DNA from: a virus | DNA length: 22,994 nucleotides | Reading direction: 5' to 3' (one strand) | IMG/VR virus record: IMGVR_UViG_3300033273_000316 | Location: 1-22,994 of that record | In this document: in pieces, positions 333 through 15,518 of the stretch | How positions within the stretch are numbered: position 1 is the stretch's first letter | How the letters are laid out: every line of letters starts with the position of its first letter | Translations under genes and position numbers: made by a program | The notes under the pieces: model-generated | What the model was told of the DNA's origin: nothing | Seen by the model: the letters and a program-made list of their open reading frames with translations, nothing else | The model's database searches: none

Positions 333-1052
333 ATGAGTAATTCCATCACAATAAACATCCCTACCTCTCTGGAGGATATTACATTAAGACAATATCAAAA
401 GTATATTAAGGATGTAAAGCATTTAACAGAGAAAGAAGAACCTACACAGGAAGAGGTAGAATTTGCGAATCTAAAGTTATTAGAATGTTTTTGTGGTATT
501 AATCTAAAACAGGCTTTTCAGTTGCCTATGACAGAGTTTAATTCTGTAATAACTCATATAAACGAATTATTTAACATTAAACATACTCTGCATAATAAAT
601 TTGATATGGTAGATGCAGATGGTAATAAGGTAACCTTTGGGTTTATTCCTAAATTAGAAGATATATCAATGGGAGAATTTGTGGATTTAGAAAAATACAT
701 TTCCGATTGGCAGCAGATGCACAAAGCGATGGCTGTATTGTATAGACCTGTTATACACGAAAAAAATAATTTCTATCTAATAGAGGATTATGAGGGGTCT
801 GATAAATACTCCGATGTGATGTTAGACTCACCTATACAGGCAGCACTTGGTTCTATGGTTTTTTTTTACAGTTTAGGGACCGAATTGTCGAAACATTTGA
901 TGGACTCTTTGGCGAAACATCTGAAGGAGGACTTGGAGTTCAAGCAACATTTGGAGCAAAGTGGGGTTGGTATCAATCAATTTACGCACTCGCTGGAGGA
1001 GATGTCAGAAAATTTGAAGAAGTTACAAAACTCCCCATTTCTCAATGTTTAA
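333..1052 (+). CDS. Tail assembly chaperone, unshifted product (gpG-like)
   Basis: This 239-residue soluble protein is rich in charged helices (KYIKDVKHLTEKEE near residue 24; a Lys/Glu helix over residues 185-230). It has no signal peptide or membrane segment. The family call rests on resemblance to a conserved Bacteroidota phage protein with a HSLEEM..NLKKL C-terminus and, above all, on the -1 frame open across its last third, the hallmark of gpG/gpGT tail chaperones. Such chaperones bind the tape measure and recruit tube subunits. The gene follows a promoter-like leader. In lambda-like phages the chaperone lies directly before the tape measure; here it lies 8 kb upstream of it. The unshifted stop falls 64 bases before the next start, a gap closed by the shifted form. 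Confidence 0.6.
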   Translation: MSNSITINIPTSLEDITLRQYQKYIKDVKHLTEKEEPTQEEVEFANLKLLECFCGINLKQAFQLPMTEFNSVITHINELFNIKHTLHNKFDMVDADGNKVTFGFIPKLEDISMGEFVDLEKYISDWQQMHKAMAVLYRPVIHEKNNFYLIEDYEGSDKYSDVMLDSPIQAALGSMVFFYSLGTELSKHLMDSLAKHLKEDLEFKQHLEQSGVGINQFTHSLEEMSENLKKLQNSPFLNV

Positions 1053-1120
1053 CCTGGTTAGAATTTGAAAGGGAGAAAAACGAATTAGAAAGTAAAATGA
1101 TAAAACAAAATTTAAAATGA
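333..1120 (+). CDS. Tail assembly chaperone, -1 frameshift product (gpGT-like)
   Basis: Frame 0 codons to 864-866 joined to the -1 frame from 866 give a 262-residue protein: 178 shared residues plus an alternative 84-residue C-terminus. That -1 frame is open from 803 to the TGA at 1118-1120 and reads as plausible protein (GWYQSIYALAGGDVRKFEEV, then ISQCLTWLEFEREKNELE). The slip site would be the nine-T run at 859-867. The shifted stop overlaps the next ATG (1117) as ATGA, matching the coupling used by most genes here. By analogy the gpGT form bridges tape measure and tube protein and is made in smaller amounts. A homopolymer sequencing error is the main alternative, but both C-termini look coding. 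Confidence 0.65.
859..894 (+). promoter_or_regulatory. Programmed -1 frameshift site in the tail chaperone gene
   Basis: Nine consecutive T (859-867) contain T TTT TTT (860-866) in the correct phase for tandem slippage of two Phe codons. Five to six bases downstream a weak hairpin can form: GTTT 871-874 with AAAC 891-894 and GAC 878-880 with GTC 887-889. The spacing suits a stimulatory element, though the stem is weak. No other good -1 heptamer was seen in the dual-coding stretch. Confidence 0.6.
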
Positions 1121-1578
1121 GACAAGTTTATACAGTACTCGATAAAATAAAAGAAATATTAAGAGCAAACGGAATTACCAAAACCGTCACCTTCGGTGAT
1201 ATTACAGAAGTTGACTTAAACAAAACAAGTATGTTTCCTCTTTGTCATATTGTATTTGGCAATGTTACATTTGAGGAAAGAATCATGTCAGCGTCTATTA
1301 GAATATTATGTTTAGATGTAGTAGATGTAACAAAGCAGAAGCAAACTGAAGATATGGCATTTGGAAATGACAACCTGCAAGACATCCTAAACACTCAACT
1401 TCAGGTGGTAAATGATTTGCAACAAGAAATGAGAAGAGGAGATGCTTTTTCTGATAACTTCCAAATTACTACAAGTGTTGTTGCTGAACCATTTCAAGAC
1501 AACTTCGAGAATCAATTAGCTGGATGGGGAATGACAGTAAACATAGAAGTTCCTAATAACGAATTATCTCTTTGTTAA
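1117..1578 (+). CDS. Probable tail completion / tail terminator protein
   Basis: A 153-residue soluble protein starting with an amphipathic helix (VYTVLDKIKEILRANG), followed by alternating strands and a hydrophilic middle (TKQKQTEDMAFGNDN). It ends in a motif familiar from Bacteroidota siphophages, LAGWGMTVNIEVPN, with a C-terminal Cys. Size, alpha/beta layout and position next to an HK97-gp10-like gene suit a tail terminator or completion protein that caps the tube and meets the head connector. The ATG overlaps the stop of the frameshifted chaperone, so its translation may be tied to frameshifting. The functional call rests on context and pattern, not on a diagnostic residue; a generic minor tail protein is the alternative. 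Confidence 0.4.
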   Translation: MRQVYTVLDKIKEILRANGITKTVTFGDITEVDLNKTSMFPLCHIVFGNVTFEERIMSASIRILCLDVVDVTKQKQTEDMAFGNDNLQDILNTQLQVVNDLQQEMRRGDAFSDNFQITTSVVAEPFQDNFENQLAGWGMTVNIEVPNNELSLC

Positions 1579-2033
1579 TGAAAAGAGTTCAAGCTACATT
1601 AGAACAATACAAAGATAAAATTGTAATCCAACTAAAAGACCGCCTTGCGGAGCAAGGTTTGGTTGCATCAGGCAAACTTCAAAATAGTATTTACGGTGTA
1701 GTAACCGAAACAGGTATTAATATATTTGCAGAAGGATATGGTACTTTTGTAGAAGAAGGAAGAGGACCAGGAAAAATGCCACCAAGAAATAAAATATTAG
1801 AGTGGGTAGAATCAAGAAACCTTCAATCTATAAATCCTAAATATAAAAGACCAAAAGATATTGCTTGGATGATAGCAAGGTCAATAGCAGAGAAAGGTAC
1901 AATTCAGAGATTTGGATATCAAGGTTCTAAATTTATTGATTTTGTAAGTAAAAATATTATGGCATCTTTAACAAAAGATATAGAAGAGAGTTATTTAAAA
2001 GATTTAAAAGACGCAATAGATGGCAACAGTTAA
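1578..2033 (+). CDS. HK97 gp10-like tail/neck component
   Basis: This 151-residue protein matches the HK97-gp10 family pattern: an N-terminal helix (LEQYKDKIVIQLKDRLAEQG), the 'ASGKLQNS' segment typical of gp10-like proteins, a short beta region (YGTFVEEGRGPGKMPP) and a C-terminal helical part. These proteins sit at the head-tail junction or tail completion site. I chose the ATG at 1578 because it overlaps the preceding stop as TAATG, the arrangement used throughout this genome; an upstream TTG at 1572 is less likely. The end overlaps the next gene by 14 bases. Family assignment is fairly secure; the exact position in the virion is not. Confidence 0.6.
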   Translation: MKRVQATLEQYKDKIVIQLKDRLAEQGLVASGKLQNSIYGVVTETGINIFAEGYGTFVEEGRGPGKMPPRNKILEWVESRNLQSINPKYKRPKDIAWMIARSIAEKGTIQRFGYQGSKFIDFVSKNIMASLTKDIEESYLKDLKDAIDGNS

Positions 2034-5000
2034 AGTAAATTCAAGAAGTCCTTATTATGTGACTGCAACAGGAGCAGAAGGTAGTGCAGTTGAAAACGCA
2101 TCACTAACAATTACAGGACCAGCAACAGGTGTAACAAATAGCGATATCACACTAACAGCAGTAGCAAGCAATTTCACACCTGCAAGTTATGCTTGGACAG
2201 GAGGAGCAATTGCTGGAAACGCAAATGAAGAAGTAACATTTACTGAAACATCAGATGGTGCAGTTGAGTATGGAGTTACAGCAACAGATTCAGCAGGTAA
2301 TACTTATACTGCAACTAAAACAGTTACTTGGTCAGCTAACACTCAATATACAGCTACTTTAACTATAACAAATGATATTAATGGACCATCTCAAGGATAT
2401 ACAGGAACTGTAACTAAAAATGCTACTAATATATCTGAAACAGTAGAAACAATAAACACATCATTAGATGAAACAGTATTCACTGTAACAGGTGAATCTG
2501 GAGATACATACGATTTTGATATTGCATTAAGCCTGGCAACTGGATTTAATGATACTGCAGCAAGTTTAGCAATTTCAACAGCAAGTTTTAGTGGTTCTTT
2601 TGCATCAGCAAATATTAATTTAACATCAACTCTAACAGGTACAGTGGCATCAGACGCAAGTTATAGTTTATATGCTGATAAAACAGATGTAACAGAGGGA
2701 CAAACTTTTACTGTTTTTTTAAGTGATGATAATAATGTAACACCAGATAACACATCTATTCCTTTTACTATTACAGGAACTAACATAACTGAAAATGACT
2801 TGCAAAGAGGTACTTTACTTGGTTCTTTTACTGTGATAGGAAACGAAGCTTCACAAACATTTGAAGTAAGGTCAGATTCAGTTCAAGAATCTGGAGGAGA
2901 AACATTAACCTTAACACTAAACAACTTTCCTTCTGTAGATATAGATATTAATTTATTTGATGAAGTAGAACGTGGAGACCCACAAGAAGTATTAATATCT
3001 CCAATAGGATACGATAGTGCTAACAGTGCTTGTTCTGTTACTGCTACAGAGACAGTTTATTATGGATTATTCTCTGGGCAAACATTTGGTAATGGTGTTA
3101 CACTGTATCAAAGTGATGCACTACAAACACCTTATTCTGGTGGTGGTAAGTATTTTAAAATAGGTTCTAATAAAAATGGTAGAATTGGAGTAAGTAATGA
3201 TGGTGAAATAACTGGATATGTAGATTGTCCTTCTACTCCAGTTACATCTTGTACTATACCTGAATCAAGCACATCGCCTAATAATGCAATTGTGTCTTCT
3301 AGCTTCTCTACTGTGGCAGGACCAGATGGTGCTAATGCTTGTGCTTTAACTGCAGACCAAGATGTATATTACAATGGCTCTATAACAGAAGGGCCAACAT
3401 TATTTACAGTAAAAGACGCAAATGATAATCTGTCTAATCCTTTTGGAGGAACAGATAACTGGTATAAATTAATACTAACTTGTGCAGATGGAACACCACA
3501 AGAACATTATGTATTCATAAATAGCTATCCTGCTGGTCGTGTAAATAGTATATTTGTCTGTGGAAGTGATATAATCCCAACAACATCTATTACAGCAGCT
3601 CCAAGTGTAACTATTGATATGTCAACTTCAGATGGAAACAATCAAGGATTTGCCTATGTTGACCAGCAAGTAATTTTAACAGCATTAACACAAAATATAT
3701 CAAACCCAACTTATCAGTGGTATAAAAGTACAACTAACAATGATATTACTTCTATACCAGGAAATGCTATTTCTGGTGAAACGCAGCAAACATTAGTAAT
3801 AAATGGAACAGGTACAGAGACGCAATCAACAACAGGAACTTTATATTATAACTGTTTAGTAAGCGGAACAACTGATGCAGATACTAATAAGTCAATAACT
3901 TGGCAAAATAGACCAGGTTATGCAGTTACATTTACAGCATCAGCAGACAATGTTAATCCTGCTTATAGTGCTTGTACTGGTACTTCTACAACTATATACA
4001 CAAACAGAGATGGTGAAACAGCTTATTGTGTTGCAAGTAAGTTTTATTCTAATGCAGCAGGTTCTTCATCACCGTCATTAACTCCAGGATGGTATGCTTT
4101 TAATGACGGAACAAATCATAATTTAAGATTTATAGAAGCAGATGGTACTCCTCAAGGATGTGTTACTGGTGGATGTGGAGGTGCAGAAGACCCCACTCCA
4201 GTTGAACCTACTGTAGGATATGCAAGAATACAAAAATGTCCTAATCAAACAAATGCTGGAGCTGTAAGATTTGTAGCTTTTGATGGATTTGAATATTCTA
4301 ACACAAACATAGTAATACAGCTTGATGATTTTGGAGGAGATGGTACAACTGATGGATGTTGGAATATAACTAATATCTATTCAACACTATCAAGTTGGGA
4401 TAACACTTTAACAGAAGATAATTTTACAAGAACTCCTACAGCATTACAGCCTTATGGTTCTTGTGAAGAATGTATTGGAGACATAGAGGTCGTTGTAGAA
4501 ACAGGACAAGACCCTAATAGATATTATGGTGGGTATAGACAGTGTAACAATGATGGAGCGCCTATTATATATTATTCATCCGCATCTCCGCTTCCAAATG
4601 TATTTAGAACAAGCTCAAACACATTAACTTGTAGAAGTAAAGTAAATGATGATTATTCTTCGACAGCAAATGAACCTGATGGTCAAGTAGAAAATTATCC
4701 AGGTTATCAGGAATTTAATGATTGTACTACTTGTTTGGAAGGAGATACAGTTACTCCAGACCCTCTTGCTTATTTTAGACAATATAATAATTGTGATGGA
4801 GCTGGTGGATATGTAATTATAGGAAGTACAACTGATTTAGACGCTACAGGTCATTGGCCTTCAGTCGTTAAATATAGTGACGTTTGTTATAGTGATGGAG
4901 GAAATACAGCAACAACGTCTATTATTAATATAACAGATTTAGTTACTTATTCTGATTGTACTGCTTGTGGTTATGTAGCCCCTACGCCAGATGACCCTGT

Positions 5001-5283
5001 TACAATAGAAACAAATGTAATTAGAATAACAAGCACAGCGTTTTCTACAATAACTAATGCTTGTGATGGGACAACAAGTAGTTTCCCTACAACTCTATAT
5101 TACACAGGTTCGCTTGGAGATGGAACACAATTATATTCTGATTCAGCACTAACAAGAGTTTATGCACCTGCATCTAGTGATTTTTATTTATCAGAAGATG
5201 CGTATTATTTTAAGATAGGAACTGGTACAGGAAATCCACGTGGTGAAATATATTCATTTGGTCAATGTGGTAATATAATATAA
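2020..5283 (+). CDS. Large modular Ig-like / Cys-module virion surface protein
   Basis: A 1087-residue protein rich in Thr, Ser, Gly and Asn, with strong beta character and no membrane segment. Residues ~27-105 look like an Ig/PKD domain (YAWTGG ... VTATDSAGN), ~210-315 like a Calx-beta-type domain and ~520-635 like another Ig-like domain (YQWYKS). Four copies of a ~75-residue Cys module (about 330-403, 435-514, 645-719, 1008-1087) share AC..T, VYY.G, LY.D and a closing Gly-Cys region. Three ~70-residue modules (736-818, 836-905, 917-983) end in Cys-x-x-Cys. This suggests repeated duplication and shuffling. Lying among tail genes, it is probably a tail fibre or receptor-contact protein; a structural decoration is also possible. 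Function is inferred. Confidence 0.55.
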   Translation: MATVKVNSRSPYYVTATGAEGSAVENASLTITGPATGVTNSDITLTAVASNFTPASYAWTGGAIAGNANEEVTFTETSDGAVEYGVTATDSAGNTYTATKTVTWSANTQYTATLTITNDINGPSQGYTGTVTKNATNISETVETINTSLDETVFTVTGESGDTYDFDIALSLATGFNDTAASLAISTASFSGSFASANINLTSTLTGTVASDASYSLYADKTDVTEGQTFTVFLSDDNNVTPDNTSIPFTITGTNITENDLQRGTLLGSFTVIGNEASQTFEVRSDSVQESGGETLTLTLNNFPSVDIDINLFDEVERGDPQEVLISPIGYDSANSACSVTATETVYYGLFSGQTFGNGVTLYQSDALQTPYSGGGKYFKIGSNKNGRIGVSNDGEITGYVDCPSTPVTSCTIPESSTSPNNAIVSSSFSTVAGPDGANACALTADQDVYYNGSITEGPTLFTVKDANDNLSNPFGGTDNWYKLILTCADGTPQEHYVFINSYPAGRVNSIFVCGSDIIPTTSITAAPSVTIDMSTSDGNNQGFAYVDQQVILTALTQNISNPTYQWYKSTTNNDITSIPGNAISGETQQTLVINGTGTETQSTTGTLYYNCLVSGTTDADTNKSITWQNRPGYAVTFTASADNVNPAYSACTGTSTTIYTNRDGETAYCVASKFYSNAAGSSSPSLTPGWYAFNDGTNHNLRFIEADGTPQGCVTGGCGGAEDPTPVEPTVGYARIQKCPNQTNAGAVRFVAFDGFEYSNTNIVIQLDDFGGDGTTDGCWNITNIYSTLSSWDNTLTEDNFTRTPTALQPYGSCEECIGDIEVVVETGQDPNRYYGGYRQCNNDGAPIIYYSSASPLPNVFRTSSNTLTCRSKVNDDYSSTANEPDGQVENYPGYQEFNDCTTCLEGDTVTPDPLAYFRQYNNCDGAGGYVIIGSTTDLDATGHWPSVVKYSDVCYSDGGNTATTSIINITDLVTYSDCTACGYVAPTPDDPVTIETNVIRITSTAFSTITNACDGTTSSFPTTLYYTGSLGDGTQLYSDSALTRVYAPASSDFYLSEDAYYFKIGTGTGNPRGEIYSFGQCGNII

Positions 5284-9206: not shown

Positions 9207-9364
9207 TGATAAAATTATTAATAGAAGCATTAAAGACAGATAACTTTTATGGAGTTAGTTATTATATAGATGTAGCAAAGGGAAGGTACAAATCTCCTAC
9301 TACATGGAAAGAAATGAAAGAAAGCATTAAACGCAATAGATATGGCTACAACACAAGTAAATGA
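9206..9364 (+). CDS. Small 52-residue protein before the tape measure
   Basis: The ATG overlaps the preceding stop as TAATG, and the reading frame fills the otherwise empty 135-base gap, ending 23 bases inside the tape measure gene. The product is short, basic and helical at its start (MIKLLIEALKTDNFYGVSYY), followed by a Lys/Arg-rich C-terminus with Trp (TTWKEMKESIKRNRYG). I do not recognise a family. The position directly before a tape measure is where tail chaperones often sit, but nothing in its sequence proves such a role. Support comes from the overlap at both ends and protein-like composition. Confidence 0.55.
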   Translation: MIKLLIEALKTDNFYGVSYYIDVAKGRYKSPTTWKEMKESIKRNRYGYNTSK

Positions 9365-11432
9365 AATGATATTTCAAATCATCGTTGATGATAAAGGCGT
9401 TAAACATAAAATAGGAAACGCAACTGTATCTATAAGCAAATTTGAAAAAGAATTAAAAAAAGCTACTCAAGCAAATAAACAATTTAATGATACTTTAAGC
9501 GGTAGAGAAAGTATGATTACAAATGCTGGTTTAGCTGGTGCTACTCTTACAGAACTTGGGCGTACTATTTCAGATTTACCTTATGGTATTAGAGGTATCG
9601 CAAACAACTTATCTCAATTATCTACACTTTTTGTTACAATGGTATCAAAAGTAGATGGAAGTGTTAAAGGATTTGCAAGAGTAGGAAAAGCGTTTAAGAT
9701 GCTTACAAGTCAGCTTATGGGTCCTCTTGGACTTATATTAGCATTTCAAGCTGTAATTGCTTTATTAGATGCTTTTGCTGGGAAAAGTAAAAAAGCTGCT
9801 GAAGAGACTGATAAATTAAATGAAGCATTAAGAGGACAAGATGCTTTAAATCAATCAATGCAAGTTTACATTGATGTTTTAAAAGATGCAAACTCAACAG
9901 AAGAACAAAGATTAGTTGCTTTAGGTAAATTACAAAAACAAGGATATGATGAAACTATAGGGACTTTAGAGGAATATCAAGCAGCTTTAAAACAAGCACA
10001 AAAACTTGAAATTGCAGAATTACAAGTAAAAGATAAAATTGCAGAATCAGAAGGTAAAATAGCGGAAGCAATAAAAGAAAGAGATAAAGCTCAAAAAGAA
10101 TTAGATGAACTTCATAAAAACAGTGTTCTTCGTTACTCAAGGGAGCAAAGAATTAAAAAAGCTAACGAACTTATAGATTCAGAACAAGCAATCATTGATT
10201 CTCAATTAGACGGTATAAGAAATTTTGTGCAAGAATTAGAAAATGACCCTTCAATTGCAGGAAATCCTTTTGTTGCAGATATGTTTGGAGTTAAGAAAAA
10301 AACACCAGACAAACCTCCTGGAGAAAGTGAAGTTGCTAAAATAGTAAAAAAATTAAATGAAGAAGTACAAAAAATGTCTGCTGAAAATGCAGAAGAATTA
10401 TTAAAAATAGAAAAACAACTTGCATTAGACGAGATAAAACAAGCAGAAGGTTCACAAAAAGAAAAAAATGAAGCTATAAGATTAATTAATGAAAGATTTA
10501 ATTTAGAGTTAAAAGCATTAAGAGAAGAAGAGCTTGATGAATTTAAAGAGTATGTTTCTAAATCAGTAGAGGAATCTATGAAAGTTATAGATTCTTTGTA
10601 TAAAGATTTCTTAAACAAAAATAAACAAGCAGCAAGAGATGCACAGAAATTTATATCTGATTGGATAAAACAACAAAACAATTTATTAAGACAGTCAAGA
10701 GAACAACAAAAAATATTTAACCAAGCCTTTACTTCAACATCAGATATTTTGGGTGCTTTAAATGATTTGAGGCAAGAACACCATCAAGCTCAACTCGACA
10801 GATTACAAAGAGAAAGAGATGTTATTTTAGCAAATGACACATTGACTCAATCTGAAAAAGAAAAAAGAATTAAAGCAATAGAATCTAAAGAAATAGCAGC
10901 ACAAAAAAGAAAAATAAAATTAGAGAGAGATATGTTTACTATTGAGCAAACTTTAATGATTGCTAAAACAATAATGAATGCTAAATTTTTTGCTCAACAA
11001 CAAATAATGATGGCACAAATTGCGGTTCAGCAAGGTGTTGCCTCTGCAAGACAGATAGCTTTAGAAGGTGCAACTCAAGCTGGTAAAGCAAGTATGTCTT
11101 TAGGTACTTTTATGTCAGCATTAGGTCCTGCTGGTGTGATAGCTTTTGGTGCGTCAATAGGTGTTGCGTTAGCGAGTATTAAAAAAGCAAGAGATGCTGC
11201 TAAAAATCAAATAGCTAATTTAGTTCCTGAAGCAAACATAGGAAGTGGTGGGGCTGCACCACCAATACAAGCTCCTGCATTCAATGTAGTAGGTGCAACA
11301 CAGACAAGTCAACTTGCTCAAACAATATCACAAGCCGAGCAACAACCTATAAAAGCATATGTTGTAGCTTCTGATGTAACTACCGCACAGGAACTTGAAC
11401 GTAGTACAATTGAAGGAGCTTCTATTGGATAA
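9342..11432 (+). CDS. Tape measure protein
   Basis: A 696-residue protein with the standard tape measure layout. The N-terminus has short strands followed by charged helices; residues ~60-100 hold LTELGRTISDLPYGIRGIAN, a segment common in tape measures of Bacteroidota phages. A hydrophobic segment (MGPLGLILAFQAVIALL, ~128-144) follows. Long coiled-coil stretches rich in Glu, Lys and Gln span ~215-290 and ~340-560, and a second Ala/Gly-rich hydrophobic region lies at ~585-635. It sets tail length (about 100 nm at 0.15 nm per residue) and is expected to enter the cell envelope during infection. No lysozyme or peptidase domain is visible. Its start overlaps the 52-residue gene by 23 bases. Confidence 0.85.
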   Translation: MATTQVNEMIFQIIVDDKGVKHKIGNATVSISKFEKELKKATQANKQFNDTLSGRESMITNAGLAGATLTELGRTISDLPYGIRGIANNLSQLSTLFVTMVSKVDGSVKGFARVGKAFKMLTSQLMGPLGLILAFQAVIALLDAFAGKSKKAAEETDKLNEALRGQDALNQSMQVYIDVLKDANSTEEQRLVALGKLQKQGYDETIGTLEEYQAALKQAQKLEIAELQVKDKIAESEGKIAEAIKERDKAQKELDELHKNSVLRYSREQRIKKANELIDSEQAIIDSQLDGIRNFVQELENDPSIAGNPFVADMFGVKKKTPDKPPGESEVAKIVKKLNEEVQKMSAENAEELLKIEKQLALDEIKQAEGSQKEKNEAIRLINERFNLELKALREEELDEFKEYVSKSVEESMKVIDSLYKDFLNKNKQAARDAQKFISDWIKQQNNLLRQSREQQKIFNQAFTSTSDILGALNDLRQEHHQAQLDRLQRERDVILANDTLTQSEKEKRIKAIESKEIAAQKRKIKLERDMFTIEQTLMIAKTIMNAKFFAQQQIMMAQIAVQQGVASARQIALEGATQAGKASMSLGTFMSALGPAGVIAFGASIGVALASIKKARDAAKNQIANLVPEANIGSGGAAPPIQAPAFNVVGATQTSQLAQTISQAEQQPIKAYVVASDVTTAQELERSTIEGASIG

Positions 11433-11466: not shown

Positions 11467-12639
11467 ATGGAAAAAATAATAGAACTTATTATAGACGAGC
11501 AAAGTGAGATTAGCGGTATTGAAGCTATCTCTGTCGTTGAAAATCCTGCAATAGAAGAAGACTTTATTGCACTAAAAGAACATAAAGATATTAAACTTGC
11601 TGAAGTAGATGCAGAACAAAGAATATTAATGGGTCCTGCACTTATTCCTAATAAGAAGATATTTAGAAAAGGTGCTGATGACGATGACAATGATTACTAC
11701 ATATATTTCTCTGAAGAGACAGTTAAGAAAGCATCTGAATTATTCTTTATAAAAAGCAAACACCAAAACTCTACATTTGAACATTCATTTGAATTATCAG
11801 ATATGTCTGTTGTAGAATCTTGGCTTATAGAAGACCCAAAAAATGATAAAGCATCTGCTTATGGATTTGACTTACCAAAAGGAACTTGGATGGTATCAAT
11901 GAAAGTATTAAATGATGATGTATGGAAAGCAGTTAAAGAAGGAGAAGTAAAAGGATTTTCTATAGAAGGTTACTTTGCAGATGGACTGGAAAGACCAAAA
12001 GAAAGTATAGAAGAAAATCTTTGTAATGAATGTTTAAGTGAATTAAATGCAGAGTTTGAACTGGCAGAAGTGTTAGCAAGTTTATCTGAAGAGGTAGAAC
12101 TTGAATCTTATGGAGGATATCCACAGTCTGCAAGAAACAATGCTAAAAGAGGAATTAAATATAACGAAGCTGTAAATAATAAATGTGCAACACAAGTTGG
12201 TAAGGTTAGAGCAAGACAACTTGAAGCAGGAGAGAAGTTTACTTTACCTACTCTTAAACGCATATACTCATATTTATCAAGAGCTTCTGCTTATTATCAA
12301 GAGGGCAATAATGAAGCCTGTGGAACCATATCGTATTTATTATGGGGTGGTAAATCAATGTTAACTTGGGTAACATCTAAACTTAAAGGACTTGATGCAA
12401 TAGAAGCAGCATCAACTATTATTGATGGAAGAGCTGCTTATACAACTGTAGAAGAAGCTGAAAGAGCTGCAGAGGATATTGGATGTTCAGGTTACCATAC
12501 TCACCAGTACGAAGGTGATACTTGGTATATGCCCTGTGAGGAACACAATCTAAAAGCTCCTTGCCAAGATGGATATGAGCAGATAGGTATGAAAGATAAA
12601 GACGGTAGAAAAGTACCTAATTGTGTTCCAATAAAATGA
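11467..12639 (+). CDS. XkdF-like head maturation protease with C-terminal add-on modules
   Basis: Residues ~1-190 match XkdF-like prohead serine proteases: 'GPALIPNKKIFRK', a possible catalytic His106 (STFEHSFELSD) and Ser165 in 'VKGFSIEGYF'. The enzyme would cut the scaffold and capsid N-termini inside the prohead. After an acidic linker come three further parts: a helical domain at ~219-317 (starting YPQSARNNAKRG, with paired Cys and 'LWGGKSMLTW'), a compact 'IGCSGYHTHQYEGDTWYMPC' module, and a final 'GYEQIGMKDKDGRKVPNCVP' tail. Both later modules recur at the ends of proteases in marine and Bacteroidota phages, but their role is unknown. The gene follows the tape measure after a 34-base AT-rich gap and ends in an ATGA overlap. 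Confidence 0.7.
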   Translation: MEKIIELIIDEQSEISGIEAISVVENPAIEEDFIALKEHKDIKLAEVDAEQRILMGPALIPNKKIFRKGADDDDNDYYIYFSEETVKKASELFFIKSKHQNSTFEHSFELSDMSVVESWLIEDPKNDKASAYGFDLPKGTWMVSMKVLNDDVWKAVKEGEVKGFSIEGYFADGLERPKESIEENLCNECLSELNAEFELAEVLASLSEEVELESYGGYPQSARNNAKRGIKYNEAVNNKCATQVGKVRARQLEAGEKFTLPTLKRIYSYLSRASAYYQEGNNEACGTISYLLWGGKSMLTWVTSKLKGLDAIEAASTIIDGRAAYTTVEEAERAAEDIGCSGYHTHQYEGDTWYMPCEEHNLKAPCQDGYEQIGMKDKDGRKVPNCVPIK

Positions 12640-12854
12640 GAAGAAGAAAGAACGCAACATTAAGCTATTCATCACCAAGAAGCTCATCAAGAGCTTGTTT
12701 GTGTCCAGATGGAAGAACATATTCAAGAAAATGTTGTGATGGAACATTAGAAGCACAAGGAATAGGAAGTATTTACAAAACAACAAAATGGTTATTGCAG
12801 GAGGATGGAAGTTACATATTACAAGAAAATGACAATAAAATAAATTTAGAATAA
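12636..12854 (+). CDS. Small cysteine-motif phage protein
   Basis: A 72-residue basic protein; I chose the ATG at 12636, which overlaps the protease stop as ATGA. After a Ser/Arg-rich start it carries a compact motif, ACLCPDGRTYSRKCCDG, with four Cys in a C-x-C...C-C pattern, followed by 'GIGSIYKTT' and an acidic end. I have seen this motif in small proteins and protein ends of Flavobacteriia phages, but no function is known to me. The Cys cluster could bind metal or form disulfides. Its stop overlaps the next ATG by one base, placing it firmly in the head gene cluster. Confidence 0.65.
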   Translation: MRRRKNATLSYSSPRSSSRACLCPDGRTYSRKCCDGTLEAQGIGSIYKTTKWLLQEDGSYILQENDNKINLE

Positions 12855-15469: not shown

Positions 15470-15518
15470 TTGTTCTTAAAAAGAAAAGGAGGCAATTTGC
15501 CTCTTTTTTTTTGAACAA
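15470..15518 (+). terminator. Rho-independent terminator after the tail tube gene
   Basis: GAGGCA (15489-15494) and TGCCTC (15498-15503) form the core stem with a 3-base loop, extended by A/G against T, and followed by nine T (15504-15512). An outer pair, TTGTTC (15470-15475) and GAACAA (15513-15518), encloses the whole element, so it may fold into a longer bulged hairpin. Confidence 0.85.

Follow-up and report, generated by a model that had tools for sequence, protein, structure and literature searches.

A run of nine to ten T at the junction of two constrained reading frames in a probable tail chaperone gene of Bacteroidota phages

One gene with two ends

The window, by which we mean the whole stretch of DNA analysed, corresponds to a 22,994-base IMG/VR virus record; it holds genes for phage head, portal, protease, holin, endolysin and Erf. 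On its plus strand, an open reading frame at 333..1052 (the zero frame) encodes a G-like product of 239 aa, consisting of a body of 178 aa and a tail that lies 3' of a run of nine T at 859..867. In the zero frame, the slip site is read as GTT TTT TTT TAC, with GTT at 858-860 and the two TTT codons at 861-863 and 864-866, and these codons bear out the original prediction that a T TTT TTT heptamer at 860-866 sits in the right phase. The -1 frame supplies a second tail, at 866..1120 on the same strand, whose translation gives a T-like domain of 84 aa that is conserved across the fetched loci. This frame had been described as open from 803 to 1120; it does run open to 1120 but starts at 806, since 803-805 is a stop codon. 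None of its start codons yields an ORF of at least 60 aa, and the -1 tail therefore needs a shift of frame. The long (GT) product comprises 178 + 84 = 262 aa and the short one 239 aa, with the first 178 residues common to both. The plus-strand overlap between the two tails extends over 186 nt (867..1052), and TAG at 874-876 closes the third frame directly 3' of the T run.

The stop codon of the -1 frame (TGA, 1118-1120) overlaps the start codon of the next gene (ATG, 1117-1119) as ATGA at 1117-1120. A proposed tie between frameshifting and the translation of that gene did not hold up: this is an ordinary short overlap, and ATGA is common in the relatives, not universal, with TAATG, TAGATG and other forms also found. 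The next gene is a plus-strand ORF at 1117..1578 that encodes 153 aa and matches PHROG 30964, a family of unknown function; its product appears to resemble a tail-terminator type protein. Further along the window, directly 3' of probable tail-completion genes, a 1,087-aa protein encoded at 2020-5283 has the look of Ig-like repeats and a weak match to a PHROG of unknown function, and a small cysteine-rich ORF (CLCPDGRTYSRKCCDG) at 12621-12854 overlaps the end of the protease gene.

The two frames and the T run among relatives

Relatives were fetched with the -1 tail, with the G part alone (a search blind to the tail and the run), and from annotated phages and bacterial genomes; with contig-end fragments and two unrelated matches excluded, 398 loci span the junction. 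They include the phage isolates P12024L and P12024S and divergent copies in Flavobacteriaceae genomes. PHROG 32199, which matches the zero-frame gene of the window (E 4.7e-17), is also matched by 51/51 relatives, and the gene belongs to phages of marine Bacteroidota. The -1 relation between the frames is the same in all 398 loci, whose sources are independent metagenomes, isolates and MAGs, and none of them, whether searched via the G part or via the T part, has G and T in one single frame. The original prediction of programmed entry into the -1 frame at the nine-T run is supported by the conservation of both the run and the frame relation, and in the alignment of homologues the T run and both C-termini of the G/GT-like product pair are conserved. 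Homopolymers are prone to indels in sequencing and in replication, and the -1 frame might in principle be an assembly error or part of a decayed gene, or the run a phase-variable switch, but the relation is invariant in the 398 loci, with no length variants that switch the frame among relatives, and both frames are under purifying selection (see below); we consider such readings vanishingly improbable.

In the Nonlabens phages P12024L and P12024S (L081, 14001-14695, and L082, 1995-2689), the annotation gives two separate hypothetical proteins and misses the frame shift, and the second annotated protein is given an internal ATG as its start, one overlapping the stop of the zero frame. Two further candidates were rejected as relatives: L241 (E 1e-4) is a chance match in which the architecture is absent, and Flavobacterium phage 6H shows a weak fold match (E 1.9e-4, low TM) with no T9 at a comparable place, and its homology is unsure. 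In L242 (about 9950-10930, minus strand), the 6H protein AGN89393.1 is followed closely by a further open stretch in a different frame, and the region is possibly another recoded gene with a different site.

The zero frame remains open for much longer than the -1 frame alone would allow. In the window, it is open for 60 codons 3' of the run, where synonymous resampling gives a median of 5 (P 0.0035), and in most relatives for 50-65 codons, where closure at about 5 codons is expected if only the -1 frame were coding; codon resampling gives P <0.05 for the open zero frame in 89% of 55 representatives, and a stricter within-sequence shuffle does so in 40%. Among -1 codons whose residue is unchanged, 6.6% differ inside the overlap versus 17% outside it (disjoint pairs, 88-97% identity). 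In a larger set, the suppression of synonymous change is strongest in the first ten codons 3' of the run (1.7% versus 9.1%) and persists beyond them (5.9% versus 9.1%, P 8e-5; 17.2% versus 24.5%, P 9e-7; 23.6% versus 31.0%, P 8e-6). The peak itself, at 868-900 in the window and in the corresponding part of the relatives, may come from dual coding alone, and a nucleotide-level signal is also possible. Judged by these codon comparisons, both tails are real and both frames are under purifying selection; the 186-base dual-coding stretch of the original prediction stands on the open zero frame and the synonymous suppression together. Some clades, that of P12024 among them, have a short zero-frame tail of 18-42 codons, from which it follows that its sequence is not essential everywhere. 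The third frame has a stop within 9 nt of the run in 108/117 clusters, meaning that wrong-frame products would be short, and this early stop may be a by-product of dual coding.

The run itself has at least nine T in 398/398 relatives. Across their 294 distinct junctions, which form 140 clusters under 80% DNA identity, its length is nine in 226 cases, ten in 65, eleven in 2 and twelve in 1, and never below nine; a relative with eight T, or with G and T in one frame, had been named beforehand as speaking against programmed frameshifting, and neither occurs. The Ts are supplied by varied codons, mostly NTT TTT TTT T.., and otherwise NTT TTT TTT TT., NNT TTT TTT TT., TTT TTT TTT followed by another base, or TTT TTT TTT T.., and where ten T occur, the flanking codons preserve the same frame relation. 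The run may begin at any of the three codon positions: to contain an in-phase heptamer, it must have 9 T from position 1, 8 from position 2 and 7 from position 3, but the observed minimum is nine in each phase.

The two flanks compensate for each other. In the 10 clusters whose run starts on a full codon and whose 3' flank is a non-T codon (L, I, V, G or A), the 5' codon is always TTT; where the 5' codon is NTT (V, L or I; 117 clusters), the next 3' base is always T (Fisher 2.4e-11); where one T stands upstream (7 clusters), two T stand downstream in 7/7 (Fisher 3.5e-5); and with independent flanks, 18.6 of the 140 clusters would be expected to have fewer than nine T, the observed number being 0 and matched by 0 of 20,000 permutations, although the relatedness of the loci makes the permutation and Fisher values look stronger than they are. 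The repeated compensation holds without those values, and the tree of the 140 clusters contains about 25 changes in the composition of the run. Longer runs are avoided too, as seen from the phenylalanine codons 3' of the run, where TTC is used 10 times and TTT 2 times against 79% TTT in the gene body (21% TTC expected, P 8e-6).

Nine T alone are not improbable in this DNA (4.5 such runs are expected from shuffles of the window and 2 are seen), and the significance of the run comes from its place, phase and conservation. Within ORFs of at least 100 aa, no other run of at least nine T was found in 1.9 Mb of fetched DNA, and many of those elsewhere sit directly 3' of terminator-like hairpins. The other nine-T run of the window, at 15504-15512, is intergenic and resembles an intrinsic terminator because it follows a hairpin (AGGAGGCAATTTGCCTC). 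In many relatives (L078, L149, L150, L155, L171, L186 and L191), a hairpin that resembles a terminator and ends in T9 lies just 5' of the G gene, upstream of the slip site by about 510-540 nt, which suggests that the G gene opens a transcription unit.

Slipping by polymerase or by ribosome

The long product could be reached in two ways. One U added to the run in the mRNA and a ribosomal -1 slip at 860-866 would give the identical 262-aa protein (GTT TTT TTT TTA CAG), and mass spectrometry, therefore, cannot separate the mechanisms. Among the sites of programmed transcriptional realignment are Tn runs with n>8 (PMC3711429), high slippage is known at nine A or T, and the RNA-DNA hybrid of RNA polymerase measures 9-10 bp (PMC5009743). 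Of the features expected of such realignment, an A/T homopolymer of about 8-9 or more is found at the frame transition in 294/294 junctions (9-12 T), the run length is independent of codon phase (three phases, all at least nine), and a stop in the remaining frame lies nearby in 108/117 clusters. A floor at nine whatever the codon phase is predicted by slippage of RNA polymerase, whereas a ribosomal heptamer predicts no such floor. In E. coli, polymerase slippage is biased to poly(T) and is detectable from 7 T (PMC6260861); with thresholds this low, a floor of exactly nine is not unique to the polymerase mechanism, and these are E. coli figures, whereas the host polymerase is that of Bacteroidota.

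Classical -1 programmed ribosomal frameshifting, a one-base slip at T TTT TTT as in lambda gpG/gpGT with the extra Ts retained for protein or codon reasons, is the established mechanism of tail chaperones (PMC5009743). In E. coli, U_UUU_UUU is prone to shifting (PMC4066793), and the gpG/gpGT ratio of about 30:1 would fit weak slipping. An in-phase heptamer of the X_XXY_YYZ type is present at 860-866 and in every relative, but its presence follows from run length and phase, any run of nine T necessarily holding one. If the heptamer alone were constrained, the flanks would be free; instead, runs of 7-8 T never occur and the flanks compensate. Shorter runs that would still keep the heptamer, with 8 T for a start at position 2 or 7-8 T for a start at position 3, are seen in 0/124 such clusters, though non-T 3' flanks occur in other clusters, and the extra Ts 3' of the heptamer are conserved. 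Constraint on the protein, in one frame or both, may account for part of this flanking conservation.

Nor is a stimulatory RNA structure conserved. The small hairpin originally noted five to six bases after the site failed to find support: the fold 3' of the slip site in the window is no better than that of shuffles (z +0.8), the RNAalifold consensus has 0 conserved pairs downstream of the site, and in 36-nt windows over the 55 representatives, the folding z-scores resemble those of control positions. We rejected a stimulatory hairpin that looked good in single relatives (L017 and L036) but not across the set. Among the local structures modelled, the conserved downstream stimulators of classical -1 frameshifting are not found. 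Taken together, we regard ribosomal slipping as an unlikely sole explanation of the site.

Both kinds of slipping might also act on the same run with neither dominant. A T run satisfies both, and dnaX uses ribosomal or transcriptional slipping, differing by species (PMC3711429), but this reading does not explain the floor of nine by itself and still needs the polymerase for that part; we find it doubtful. On balance, we favour slippage of RNA polymerase, with one added U, as the main source of the long form, alone or with ribosomal slipping, and the pair as a gpG/gpGT-like tail assembly chaperone. Of the original comparison with gpG/gpGT, the two-product arrangement with its -1 shift survives, while a mainly ribosomal slip has become doubtful, the evidence from run length pointing to the RNA polymerase.

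Under the favoured mechanism, the RNA polymerase of the host would slip on the nine-T run and add one U to a fraction of the mRNAs, ordinary translation of which would read the -1 frame and produce the 262-aa form; straight read-through of the unslipped message would give the 239-aa form, and a ribosomal slip at the in-phase U UUU UUU may contribute. A run kept at 9-10 T would fill the RNA-DNA hybrid of the polymerase enough to slip and yet be short enough for slipping to be rare, and its length would set the ratio of the two proteins. We infer both the polymerase mechanism and the product ratio from the sequences. A fuller claim would be that RNA polymerase slippage governs both forms of a tail chaperone throughout a large group of Bacteroidota phages, and that selection holds the run at 9-10 T, about the length of the RNA-DNA hybrid, as a dial for the chaperone ratio; we judge it evenly balanced.

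A probable tail chaperone and its counterparts

The G/GT-like product pair is probably a tail assembly chaperone, given its two-product architecture, its neighbourhood of structural genes, and the lack of any other small gene before the tape-measure candidate at 9342. A shared N-terminus extended through a frame shift, as expected of such chaperones, is conserved in all 398 loci. A position just upstream of the tape measure is usual, not strictly defining, and here five genes lie between the gene and the candidate. AlphaFold2 predicts the zero-frame product with a mean pLDDT of 86, the G part having a mixed fold in which the last helix continues into the zero-frame tail, and the -1 tail as all-helical (pLDDT 84). 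In Pfam and the PDB, neither domain has a significant match; in the fold search, the HK97 chaperone ranks 11th in the PDB (E 0.98) and a named viral tail chaperone reaches E 0.18, neither of them significant. The original assignment to tail chaperones thus remains likely from architecture and context, without help from the fold matches.

No known tail chaperone was matched significantly by fold or profile, which would suit a pair serving another assembly step, such as head-tail joining, as would the gene order: in P12024L, the pair follows terL, the large terminase gene, and in the window, the gene precedes probable tail-completion genes and not the tape measure. We nevertheless think this improbable, as the two-product -1 architecture is typical of tail chaperones, PHROG 166 (tail protein) is weakly matched by 4/51 relatives (best 6e-4), and the tape-measure candidate has no other small gene before it.

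Two-product tail chaperones are already known, as is homopolymer slippage by RNA polymerase. In the open-access literature searched, we found no description of a tail chaperone made by transcriptional slippage, nor of a phage structural gene with a slip site held at 9-10 T across a large group and two constrained tails. The frameshift of tail chaperones is a standard example of ribosomal recoding. If polymerase slippage acts here, transcription would already fix a structural ratio of the phage, and a virion assembly gene, like dnaX, could use either slipping mechanism in place of the other. Such slippage would also account for the failure of annotation to recognise the gene, split as it is into two hypothetical proteins in P12024L/S. 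The natural series of run lengths and phases offers ready-made test sequences.

Among known systems, the closest are the Nonlabens (Persicivirga) phages P12024L and P12024S, whose genes 40/41 and 38/39 are directly homologous and have both frames and the same T9; they differ from the window in their annotation and in a zero-frame tail of just 27 codons. With lambda gpG/gpGT and the HK97-type chaperones, the gene shares the principle of one gene with two products, a common N-terminus and a -1 shift, the minor product carrying an extra C-terminal domain, and a place in the structural region of a tailed phage. The lambda slip site is a GGGAAAG-type heptamer, whereas here the site is an all-T run of 9-10; the overlap covers about 50-65 codons with a constrained zero-frame tail, the gene lies away from the tape measure, and neither sequence homology nor a significant fold match was detected. 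In Thermus thermophilus dnaX and Shigella mxiE, too, a coding run of nine A or T opens another frame and stops in the remaining frame are nearby, but these are bacterial genes, whereas ours belongs to the structural genes of a phage, has two constrained tails, and its slippage is predicted from sequence. The frameshift genes of IS elements with A or T runs differ in product and function, and are alike in that ribosomal and transcriptional slipping are interchangeable at their homopolymers.
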